Shown: positions 1 through 23,121 of the stretch, in pieces | How positions within the stretch are numbered: the stretch's first letter is position 1 | Layout of the letters: each line of letters opens with the position of its first letter | The notes under the pieces: model-generated | Told to the model about the DNA's origin: nothing | The model's input: only the letters and a program-made list of their open reading frames with translations | The model's database searches: none | From: Candidatus Hydrogenedentes bacterium CG07_land_8_20_14_0_80_42_17 | Lineage (GTDB): Bacteria > UBA8481 | NCBI GenBank assembly: GCA_002780065.1 | Contig: PEWQ01000093.1 | Location: 1 to 23,121, forward strand | Length of the DNA: 23,121 nt | Reading direction: 5' to 3' | Program-made: the position numbers and the translations under genes

Positions 1-123
1 GCACAAGCGCCACGCGTCAATGGACGCCACGCGTCAAAGAACGTGTGAAATAATTGAAAAATGAAAATTGGAAAAATAAAATTTTCAATTTGCACTTTCC
101 AATTTGCAATTTCAAATATAACG
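1..123 (-). repeat. dispersed repeat element, left copy (inverted)
   Basis: The reverse complement of this stretch matches the 138-bp tandem units at 22854-23121 almost base for base. Differences are a few substitutions in the GC-rich arm and ACACG for GCATG near position 45. The AT-rich core (about 47-120) holds AATTGGAAA and TTTCCAATT as inverted repeats. The GC-rich arm (about 5-38) holds GCGTC and GACGC separated by AATG. Similarity stops at about 123, where the unique ftsH upstream sequence begins. The first bases (gcac) look like the tail of the GGAGGCAC arm seen at 22836, so the element probably continues left of the window. An open frame runs through it, but it is repeat-derived and not called as a gene. 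Confidence 0.9.
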
Positions 124-5904: not shown

Positions 5905-8073
5905 ATGACAGTGTTCGACGAGAAGCAGACACTTCTTTTTGCAGACATGGGGCGCATCTTCGAGTTTTTTTCTTATGATCTCGAATCCACGTTAGAGCGT
6001 TTTGTAGAGTCAGCAAGCCATATTCAGCATTTTGACGAATACGCATTTGTTGTCACAACTCATAAAGGTGAAATAAAAGTTTTCTTGTCGGACGGATTAT
6101 CTCTGCCGAAAAATAATGACGAAGTAAAATTCTCAGACTTTTATCCCGGCGATGAAGCAATGTATCTCGTTGACGAAGTCGATGAGAAATGCTGCAACAT
6201 TATTTTTGCACCTTCAGGAAAAATTCGTTCTTACGTAACGATCCCGCTCATAACTCAAAATGAGCTGACCGGATTGTTCATTCTCGGCAGTAAGAAAAAA
6301 TCCGGATTCGATTCAGAACTTCAGGATATATTCTTTTCGCTCGGTTCATTCTTTGCAGTTGCAGTTGAAAACATCAGGCATTTTGAACGCTCACAGGATA
6401 GGATGAAAGTAATAATAAGCCTTCAAACGAGCCAACAGGCAATCGCTTCCGCAATGGAATTAGACAAGATTCTTGCAAAGGTATCCGAAGAGAGCCTTAG
6501 AACCTTAGGCGCGGAATGCGCCGCAATCTACTTGAAATCAGGTTTTGAGTGGCATAGGCACATATTTCGCTCAAGGATTCCTGCAATATCTCCTCCCGAT
6601 GTCGTCGCTCATGCAGACCTTCCTATACCGATATCGAGCGCGCTTGAAAGAACCGATGTCGTATTTATATCAAAAAGCGATTTCGACGATCTTGGAGCAT
6701 TCCGCTTTTCAGCGCGCCCCGGTTCATTAGTCATAGTTCCGCTAAGATTAGAAAATACTTTATCCGGATTTGTAATTCTTGAATCGAGTACATTCGATTC
6801 CGAGCGGCTCTATTTGACTCAACTCTTCGCAGGGCAAGTTCAGGTAATATTTTCGAATGCATTGCTGGTCAAAGGACTTCGTGAAAAGACTGCTGAGCTT
6901 GAAGAGAAGAATAAACTTATTCGCGAATATGCCGAGAGCCTTCAGAAATCTCACGACATGCTCGAGAACCGCGTCAAAGAATTAAGCACTCTTCATGATG
7001 TAAGCTCCGCTCTGGTTTCAATAACTGATATAGATGAATTACTGCATTTCATACTCGATCGAGCGTGCAGTGTAATGCGCTCCGACAAAGGTTCGCTTCT
7101 TCTATTGGACGGCGATGAACTGAAAGCTCGCTGTGTCCGCGGAAATTTTGGACCGTCTGAAATCAAATTCAAATTAGGCGACGGAATTGCAGGGCAGGTA
7201 GCTAAAACAGGACAATCGAAAATTATAGAAAATGTGCTCACAAACCCCAAATTCAAGCACATACAAGAAAAAGAATGTGAGCGGGAAGAGACCATGATTG
7301 CAGTGCCATTGCTCATAGACAATCGAGTTATCGGAGTATTGAACGTTGACCGCGAATTAAAATTTGGAGTCTTCACACCTGACGACGAGAGATTGCTTAC
7401 GTCGCTTGCTTCCGCCGCGGCAGAGGCTTTAGCTCGAGCTCAGCACATTCTTGATCTCCGCAATATGAACCTCGAAACGCTCGAGGCGTTCGCAATGGCA
7501 GTCGATACGAAGGACGCATACACGCATGGACATTCCAGACGCGTAAGCTATCTATCTGTCCAAATCGCGAACAAACTTAGATTATCAAGCGAAGAGATCG
7601 AAGTAATCGCGCGAGCGGCTCTTCTGCACGACATCGGCAAGATAGGAATATCGAACACAATTCTCTTCAAGCAAGGCAGACTTACTCCGGAAGAATACGA
7701 CATCATGAAAGCTCACGTGATATGGGGAGAAAATATTCTGAAGCCGATCAAAAGTCTGAAAGAGGAGGCATATCTAGTTCGGCACCATCACGAACGTTGG
7801 AACGGACAAGGCTATCCCGATAAATTGAAAGGCGAAGAGATTCCAATCGGCGCGGCGATTATATCGGTTAGCGATGCATACGACACAATGACCTCAGACA
7901 GGCCTTACAGGAGATCTATTAGCCGAGAAGCGGCGCTAAAAGAACTTCAGAAGTATAATGGAACTCAGTTCAATCCTCTTGTCGTCGGAGCATTCATGAT
8001 GCTGGTTCAGCAGAAAGATTTTTCTTTAGACTCTACCGGCGCAAATCTAAGAGAGGAGATCATCGGTTCATGA
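5905..8073 (+). CDS. three-GAF HD-GYP domain phosphodiesterase
   Basis: Likely cytosolic c-di-GMP phosphodiesterase under control of small-molecule sensor domains. No membrane segment or signal peptide is seen. Three GAF-like domains (about 10-165, 180-325 and 360-510) lead into an HD-GYP domain (about 520-700); a coiled coil (about 325-360) separates GAF2 and GAF3. The HD-GYP signature is complete: HDIGK at 575-579, HHERWNGQGYP with GYP at 636-638, then IISVSDAYDTMTSDRPYR, which points to an active enzyme. The ligands of the GAFs cannot be read. It lies seven bases after pdxJ with a weak AAGGA site and overlaps lysS by four bases. With the PilZ protein upstream, the operon holds a c-di-GMP receptor and a c-di-GMP-degrading enzyme but no GGDEF synthase. 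Confidence 0.92.
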   Translation: MTVFDEKQTLLFADMGRIFEFFSYDLESTLERFVESASHIQHFDEYAFVVTTHKGEIKVFLSDGLSLPKNNDEVKFSDFYPGDEAMYLVDEVDEKCCNIIFAPSGKIRSYVTIPLITQNELTGLFILGSKKKSGFDSELQDIFFSLGSFFAVAVENIRHFERSQDRMKVIISLQTSQQAIASAMELDKILAKVSEESLRTLGAECAAIYLKSGFEWHRHIFRSRIPAISPPDVVAHADLPIPISSALERTDVVFISKSDFDDLGAFRFSARPGSLVIVPLRLENTLSGFVILESSTFDSERLYLTQLFAGQVQVIFSNALLVKGLREKTAELEEKNKLIREYAESLQKSHDMLENRVKELSTLHDVSSALVSITDIDELLHFILDRACSVMRSDKGSLLLLDGDELKARCVRGNFGPSEIKFKLGDGIAGQVAKTGQSKIIENVLTNPKFKHIQEKECEREETMIAVPLLIDNRVIGVLNVDRELKFGVFTPDDERLLTSLASAAAEALARAQHILDLRNMNLETLEAFAMAVDTKDAYTHGHSRRVSYLSVQIANKLRLSSEEIEVIARAALLHDIGKIGISNTILFKQGRLTPEEYDIMKAHVIWGENILKPIKSLKEEAYLVRHHHERWNGQGYPDKLKGEEIPIGAAIISVSDAYDTMTSDRPYRRSISREAALKELQKYNGTQFNPLVVGAFMMLVQQKDFSLDSTGANLREEIIGS

Positions 8074-9638
8074 CGGAGAATAATCCTGAAGTCATTGAAA
8101 AGTCGGATAAGATAGAAATTCGCAGAGGCAAGCGCGATAAGTTTAGAGAAATCGGAATCGATCCGTATCCGCCGCGATTCGAAAAAACATTTTCATGCAG
8201 TAAAGCGCGCGAGAGCGTGAGCGAGACCGAGCCTCATGAACATGTCGCAGTCGCAGGAAGGATACGTTCTATTCGAGAACACGGGAAAAGCACTTTTGCC
8301 ACTATCGAAGATGAATCGGGAAAAGTTCAGATATATTTCAGAAAAAATGATCTGACAGAAAAATATGATTACATAAAATTTTTGGATATTGGAGATTTCA
8401 TCGGCGTAAAAGGATACACCTTTAGAACTCGGATGGGTGAGCCGACGGTTCATGCCGAAGACTTCGAGATTCTTTCCAAATCGCTTCAGCCCTTGCCTTC
8501 GGAATGGTACGGGCTCGAGAACAAAGAGATTCGATATCGCAAACGGTATCTGGACCTTATTTCAAACCCTGAAGTGCGTGAAGTATTTAAGAAGCGAGCG
8601 GTTATTGTTAGCTCTATCAGACAATTTTTAATCGAACGCGGTTTTATGGAGGTTGAGACTCCGATGATGCAGGCGCTTGCTGGAGGCGCCGCCGCAAAGC
8701 CGTTTATGACTCATCATAACGCTCTTGATATAGATCTCTATCTTCGAATAGCTCCGGAACTTTATCTAAAAAGACTTATAGTCGGAGGATTCGAAAAAGT
8801 TTTCGAACTGAACAGAAACTTCAGAAACGAAGGTATGGACAGAAACCACAATCCTGAATTCACGATGCTGGAAATTTATCAGGCATACGCCGATTACAAC
8901 TCGATGATGGATTTGACTGAAGAGTTGGTTCGATATGCGGCAGAAAAAGCGAATGCTTATCGAGTACCGCTGGAGGCACGTGCGAGCGCTCCTGTGCCTC
9001 TAAGTAAAAATGATAATGAATTGCCGCTGGAGGCACGTGCGCCCTCGCACATGCTCGATAAGCATTTCATGGAAGTTATATCTGATGATAAAAGCTCTTC
9101 ATTGAAACTCGATGGTCCATGGCAAAGAATTCCTTTTTTCGAAGCGATTAGATTAGGAGGCGGTCCGGATCTGAAACCAGGAGATGCCGCAAAAGCTGAA
9201 GCGGCGGTCAAGGAATGCGGAATAGAGACTGAGTCGCGCGAATATGCCGACCACCTTGATTCTCTCTTCGAGCGATTTGCTGAGCCTCATTTGGCCGGTC
9301 CAGTATTCATCACGGATTATCCTACTGCACTAAGTCCTCTTGCTAAAAGAAAACCGGGTGAGCCTGAACTTGTTGAGCGATTTGAGGCTTACGTTAGAGG
9401 AATGGAGATCGCAAACGCATTCAGTGAGCTTAACGATCCTGACGATCAGGAGGCTAGGTTTCGAGCTCAAAGCGATAGAATCGACGAAGATTATGTCTCT
9501 GCGCTTCGAGCCGGAATGCCGCCGGCCGGAGGACTAGGCATCGGCATTGATAGACTTGTAATGATTCTTACCGGAGCACATTCTATACGCGATGTAATTC
9601 TCTTTCCTACGATGCGGCCAGATTCAAAAAGCGATTAG
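8070..9638 (+). CDS. lysS: lysyl-tRNA synthetase, class II, with repeat-derived insertion
   Basis: Charges tRNA-Lys with lysine in the cytosol. The N-terminal OB-fold (about 60-150) binds the anticodon. The class II core shows motif 2 around RNEGMDRNHNPEFTMLE and motif 3 GIGIDRLVMILTG near the C terminus, plus ALAGGAAAKPF of LysRS. The 522 residues exceed the usual 490-505. The excess sits between the helix ending AAEKANA and the conserved PWQRIPF: residues about 297-335 contain PLEARA twice (300-305 and 319-324), encoded by a palindromic repeat described separately. Active-site motifs lie outside the insertion, so the enzyme should work. GAGGAG stands upstream of the ATG, which overlaps the HD-GYP gene by four bases. 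Confidence 0.96.
   Translation: MTENNPEVIEKSDKIEIRRGKRDKFREIGIDPYPPRFEKTFSCSKARESVSETEPHEHVAVAGRIRSIREHGKSTFATIEDESGKVQIYFRKNDLTEKYDYIKFLDIGDFIGVKGYTFRTRMGEPTVHAEDFEILSKSLQPLPSEWYGLENKEIRYRKRYLDLISNPEVREVFKKRAVIVSSIRQFLIERGFMEVETPMMQALAGGAAAKPFMTHHNALDIDLYLRIAPELYLKRLIVGGFEKVFELNRNFRNEGMDRNHNPEFTMLEIYQAYADYNSMMDLTEELVRYAAEKANAYRVPLEARASAPVPLSKNDNELPLEARAPSHMLDKHFMEVISDDKSSSLKLDGPWQRIPFFEAIRLGGGPDLKPGDAAKAEAAVKECGIETESREYADHLDSLFERFAEPHLAGPVFITDYPTALSPLAKRKPGEPELVERFEAYVRGMEIANAFSELNDPDDQEARFRAQSDRIDEDYVSALRAGMPPAGGLGIGIDRLVMILTGAHSIRDVILFPTMRPDSKSD
8967..9041 (+). repeat. palindromic repeat inserted in frame within lysS
   Basis: An 18-bp sequence (CCGCTGGAGGCACGTGCG) occurs at 8967-8984 and again at 9024-9041, 57 bp (19 codons) apart and in the same frame. 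In the first copy GAGGCAC (8973-8979) pairs with GTGCCTC (8994-9000). Both outer borders, CTGGAGGCACG and CCTGTGCCTC followed by AAG one base later, recur in the intergenic module at 22835-22887. The second copy keeps only the left arm. This looks like a shortened member of the dispersed family that entered a coding region without breaking the frame. Confidence 0.8.
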
Positions 9639-22798: not shown

Positions 22799-22835
22799 TC
22801 AAAAAAGGGATAGCTGCCGGAAATTGCATCTCATC

Positions 22836-22885
22836 TGGAGGCACGCACGCGACGCGTCCATTGACGCGAGGCGCCTGTGCCTCCA
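22836..22885. repeat. palindromic module at the border of the tandem repeats
   Basis: TGGAGGCAC (22836-22844) and GTGCCTCCA (22877-22885) form a perfect nine-base inverted repeat. Inside it CGCGTC and GACGCG form a second stem around CATT. The outer arms match the palindrome inside lysS. No run of T follows either arm, so it is not called as a terminator. The rest of 22799-23121 contains no gene; the open frame from 22753 to 23067 is a read-through of the repeats. Confidence 0.85.
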
Positions 22886-22991
22886 AGGCGGCTCTCGTTA
22901 TATTTGAAATTGCAAATTGGAAAGTGCAAATTGAAAATTTTATTTTTCCAATTTTCATTTTTCAATTATTTCGCATGTTCTTTGACGCGAG
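22854..22991 (+). repeat. 138-bp tandem repeat, unit 1
   Basis: First full unit of a direct repeat with an exact 138-bp period. A GC-rich part containing GCGTCC and GACGCGAGGCGCC is followed by an AT-rich near-palindromic core (about 22900-22970). It differs from unit 2 over 130 compared bases at only two sites (22880 C/A and 22927 C/T). The period equals 46 codons, so open frames pass through it. Confidence 0.95.
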
Positions 22992-23121
22992 GCGTCCATT
23001 GACGCGAGGCGCCTGTGACTCCAAGGCGGCTCTCGTTATATTTGAAATTGCAAATTGGAAAGTGTAAATTGAAAATTTTATTTTTCCAATTTTCATTTTT
23101 CAATTATTTCGCATGTTCTTT
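22992..23121 (+). repeat. 138-bp tandem repeat, unit 2 (cut by window end)
   Basis: Second unit, 130 of 138 bases present, then the window ends inside the element. The near identity to unit 1 implies recent duplication or ongoing homogenisation. Further units may follow beyond the window. Confidence 0.93.

Follow-up and report, generated by a model that had tools for sequence, protein, structure and literature searches.

The lysyl-tRNA synthetase gene (lysS) in the window, the whole 23,121-nucleotide stretch of DNA analysed here, contains an in-frame insert of about 121 bp. We conclude that a lineage-restricted element of the MITE/REP type very probably inserted into this gene and would be translated there as a tolerated, probably disordered loop. 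The features of lysS and its insert, and the other element copies in the window, are as follows.

8070-9638, + strand: lysS, class II lysine--tRNA ligase of 522 amino acids, core intact (NCBIfam and PDB LysRS matches)
about 8950-9070, + strand: repeat-derived insert of about 121 bp, coding for roughly residues 295-333 (blastn and alignment)
8950-8967, - strand: inverted linker piece; CGAATGCTTATCGAGTAC agrees at 16/18 positions with CGAATGCTTATCCAGCAC of the C173 copy
8952-8964, + strand: left 13-bp inverted arm AATGCTTATCGAG, 100% complementary to 9054-9066
8967-8984, + strand: 18-bp direct repeat CCGCTGGAGGCACGTGCG, copy 1, coding for PLEARA
8970-9004, + strand: first, short element copy, spanning both terminal repeats, CTGGAGGCACGTGCGAGCGCTCCTGTGCCTCTAAG
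9007-9070, + strand: second, partial element copy, with 5' flank, TGGAG, hairpin 1 and linker TCGATAAGCATTTCAT
9024-9041, + strand: 18-bp direct repeat CCGCTGGAGGCACGTGCG, copy 2, coding for PLEARA
9054-9066, + strand: right 13-bp inverted arm CTCGATAAGCATT, pairing with the left arm at 8952-8964
22835-22887, + strand: intergenic element copy spanning both terminal repeats; an AT-rich repeat comes next
22999-23025, + strand: partial second element copy, part of a tandem duplication of 138 bp that lies at the contig end

The lysS product matches TIGR00499 (562.8 bits) and PRK00484 (614.8 bits), both above the cut-offs. An alignment with 48 LysRS from other genomes revealed about 37 net extra residues between AAEKAN and MEVISDD that are unique to this protein, in agreement with the preliminary description, in which the enzyme was considered longer than typical LysRS exactly at a palindromic repeat. 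The 48 include the LysRS (54% identity) of G001, which is the only genome of the same order in a comparison that reaches no closer than this rank. The gene is the single class II LysRS copy in the draft genome (2.39 Mb, 207 contigs, 86.9% complete); a class I LysRS was not found by a search that was positive in known genomes, an absence that is not proof at this level of completeness.

The repeat had been described as spanning 8967-9041. The repeat itself is real, but this span represents only the middle of the unit, because the inverted arms reach 8952-9066 and the insert covers about 8950-9070, bounds that are approximate since exact ends would need an empty site. Other parts of that description were reproduced in full: the two 18-bp sequences are exact and both encode PLEARA, with a start-to-start distance of 57 bp; GAGGCAC and GTGCCTC flank copy 1, the latter at 8994-9000; and the borders of the lysS repeat recur in the intergenic module at 22835-22887. 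No other direct repeat of 18 bp occurs within the coding portion of the window, and among 200 Markov windows not one had such a repeat within 150 bp. The insert would be a composite copy made of two tandem partial units and an inverted piece. The linker match at 8950-8967 to the C173 copy scored 14 (shuffle maximum, 11), GCGAGCGCTCCTGTGCCTCTAAG of the short copy is also found in the intergenic copy of the window, and hairpin 1 of the second copy is formed by the pairing of 9033-9041 with 9046-9054. Inspection of the lysS junctions by eye identified no clear target-site duplication.

A direct repeat spaced by 57 bp, 33 bp of which align at 82%, is also what might be seen if an old loop native to LysRS had grown by slippage or by a 57-bp tandem duplication, its likeness to intergenic sequences being coincidental. 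This explanation is highly improbable, and the dispersed copies already largely refute it. The best blastn match of lysS, on contig C147, shows 95% identity over 43 bp (E 5e-11), and covariance model R1, although built with the lysS copy among its sequences, matches lysS at 9028-9071 with 55.1 bits (E 1.6e-12). When the whole of lysS was compared with the other element loci by blastn, only 9007-9070 matched; the left part of the insert was matched to intergenic copies in a separate comparison, and the rest of the gene is without such likeness. A protein-level search with the insert peptide recovered, apart from lysS itself, only the copy on C147, where the match lies in a frame of 48 aa.

The element from which we derive the insert is a palindrome of two hairpins between TGGAG and CTCCA ends. 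Its canonical unit consists of TGGAG, hairpin 1 (GCACGTGCG..CGCACGTGC), a linker near YNGATAAGCATGCGTNGCAA, hairpin 2 (GCACAGGCG..CGCCTGTGC) and CTCCA. It has terminal inverted repeats (TGGAGGCAC/GTGCCTCCA), its canonical copies measure 88-139 bp, and it is multicopy and non-coding, as is a MITE. In hairpin 1, changes on both sides occur at 4/9 pairs and 97.7% of the cells are paired, figures that are supportive only, because the alignment rows had been chosen by hand, one of them being an idealised, consensus-like sequence. In the consensus of alignment A1, hairpin 1 is preceded by TGGAG and followed by TNGATAAG, and neither a GTAG nor a CGTC tetranucleotide is present at its foot. The loops frequently contain arrays of a ACGCGTCAATGGACGC-like unit, which make them larger. 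Tandem arrays with units of roughly 18-22 bp are present at L070 (C173), L011 (C126) and L169 (C154); the number of units varies between copies, and these differences look as if they had arisen by slippage expansion.

Several searches showed that this element is dispersed in the genome. CTGGAGGCACG occurs 25 times genome-wide and TGGAGGCACGTGCG 19 times, whereas their reversed controls do not occur at all; the hairpin-linker core was found 36 times with up to three mismatches (control, 0), and the covariance model yielded 54 matches. Merging of all searches gave about 60 element sites, 16 of which are no more than 400 bp from a contig start. The family is probably undercounted because the element breaks the assembly. 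In G001, the border sequence occurs only at chance level (10 occurrences versus 7 for the reversed sequence), and 288 further genomes contained none apart from single chance matches in two of them. Because of this distribution, the family appears to be restricted to the lineage within the genomes compared. Neither of the two outcomes that the preliminary description had named as refuting its reading was thus observed: relatives lack the extra residues, and the border sequence does have other copies in the genome. The exact element core had no match in IMG/VR.

A second dispersed repeat, which is AT-rich and about 77 bp long (AATTGCAAATTGGAAAGTGC...), has >40 copies, mostly 90-100% identical, and often adjoins the palindromic element. 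In the window, it is located at 35-111 (-), 22908-22992 (+) and 23046-23121 (+), that is, at both contig ends. In addition, a linker piece of the element abuts an apparent CRISPR array with a repeat close to TTTCAATCCACGCGCCCCGCACGGGGCGCGAC (L172, contig C6 near 135-155).

Since members of the palindromic and AT-rich families are found at numerous contig ends, the two of the present contig among them, an intergenic repeat might have been misjoined into lysS during assembly. We attach almost no probability to such an artefact: both parts of the gene are complete and share one reading frame, which the insert does not interrupt with a stop, and the inserted sequence is a variant of its own, its nearest copy (on C147) being similar over only the 43 bp mentioned above.

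Among the approximately 60 sites, lysS is the only conserved gene with a copy inside it, according to ORF tests at the fetched sites. One other gene, ybeY (PF02130; L077, 866-1259 (+), contig C176), ends within an element copy, from which its final codons (LDASASR) and stop derive. Candidate in-gene copies on C147, C136, C154 and C194 were rejected because each copy precedes the likely start codon, and a match in an amylase gene on C72 was a chance match with three mismatches. The window is 96% coding, and one in-gene copy in 60 would be far below the expectation for random placement at 88% coding genome-wide, a figure that is itself an assumption and is set against sites not all of which were ORF-tested with full flanks. 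The view that a palindromic element of this type can enter genes thus holds for lysS, where the copy is in frame, but extends to no other conserved ORF among the sites tested, and the in-frame tolerance of the element rests on one conserved gene. As a rule, the element does not enter genes, and the lysS copy is a rare tolerated insertion. With a single insertion found in a conserved gene among these sites, tolerance would be the exception, with selection keeping the element intergenic.

Only one of the three forward frames of the lysS insert is stop-free, and this is the frame used. Because, in addition, the net length of the insert preserves the reading frame, it would be translated, giving about 37-40 extra residues in the form of a disordered loop. 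Translational bypassing was considered and rejected: an insert that is stop-free and in frame needs no bypass. In an AlphaFold2 model of the enzyme (mean pLDDT 81.2), residues 298-342 have values under 50 and are flanked by a confident helix (276-296) and strand (352-355), so that the segment appears unstructured between intact core elements. The top Foldseek matches of the model are all LysRS, with TM of about 0.8 for solved structures. The inserted loop is likely disordered, although an unaligned insert would also yield low pLDDT. The site would be a variable loop leading from the helix after motif 2 to the strand before the C-terminal half of the catalytic domain. We infer that this loop tolerates the insert because it lies outside the catalytic core, and the insertion may have been nearly neutral.

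From arm to arm, the insert measures 115 bases, and this segment folds stably both as RNA (-54.2 kcal/mol, z = -6.0 versus shuffles) and as DNA (z -4.6). The RNA fold would accord with an insert kept for its function, either as a stable hairpin that slows or regulates lysS translation or as a loop that binds tRNA or a partner; if this were true, a selfish repeat would have been turned into a working part of an essential enzyme. However, such folding is inherent to the element at any location and the loop is predicted to be disordered, and the genomes compared include no close relative that could show conservation. We therefore regard a functional insert as improbable and favour a tolerated insertion.

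Such an insertion would have occurred through movement of the element as mobile DNA, after the split from the nearest relative compared. A RAYT was sought as a mobiliser: the four Y1_Tnp (PF01797) matches are not accompanied by the element in the fetched flanks, and the draft may miss a RAYT. These four Y1 (IS200-like) transposase genes (L202, L203, L204 and L205) include some with RAYT-like extensions. A parent insertion sequence was not found in the search, which was limited to PF01797.

The best-known comparison is with the Rickettsia palindromic elements (RPEs), which are 105-146 bp long (Ogata et al. 2000, as reviewed in PMC2229807, PMC10969869); the Gmk of R. conorii stays active despite an RPE insert (PMC2229807). 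The present element is likewise a short dispersed palindrome of similar length (canonical copies, 88-139 bp) found in frame in a conserved gene. However, nearly half of RPEs lie within ORFs (PMC10969869), whereas here this applies to one of about 60 sites, and in-frame inserts in many unrelated genes, as known for RPEs, were not seen beyond lysS and the overlap with the end of ybeY. The likeness is one of description, and no sequence relation is claimed. Palindromic repeats within ORFs, tRNA synthetases included, are also shared with the GTAG/CGTC-tagged REPs, which often form dimers or groups and occur inside ORFs of several phyla, among them tRNA synthetase genes of X. oryzae, E. litoralis and S. 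alaskensis; these inserts mostly encode 20-30 aa, and clusters 43-82 aa (PMC3733652). In contrast to those REPs, the present element lacks the tags, contains two different hairpins between TGGAG and CTCCA, and flanks no RAYT.

Enterobacterial RU/ERIC and other MITEs are 100-170 bp long, have terminal inverted repeats and are mostly intergenic, with occasional in-frame fusions (PMC2759123, PMC10969869). The present element resembles them in all of these respects except that RU fusions in conserved families are reported to affect C-terminal regions and not conserved domains (PMC2759123), whereas the lysS insert sits within the catalytic domain, in a loop. The element behaves like these known insertions, and we file it as a MITE-like palindromic element and not as an RPE. 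A Rickettsia-like insertion in an unrelated organism, as first proposed, is indeed present here, but cases outside Rickettsia had already been published, also for tRNA synthetases (PMC3733652). In-frame palindromic insertion is thus already known, and the lysS case adds a clean further example of it rather than anything new in kind. It extends the phenomenon to a bacterial lineage that is isolated and to an enzyme that is apparently the cell's sole lysyl-tRNA synthetase; the donor family could be identified within this genome. The case also provides a count: one insertion found in a conserved gene among about 60 sites.
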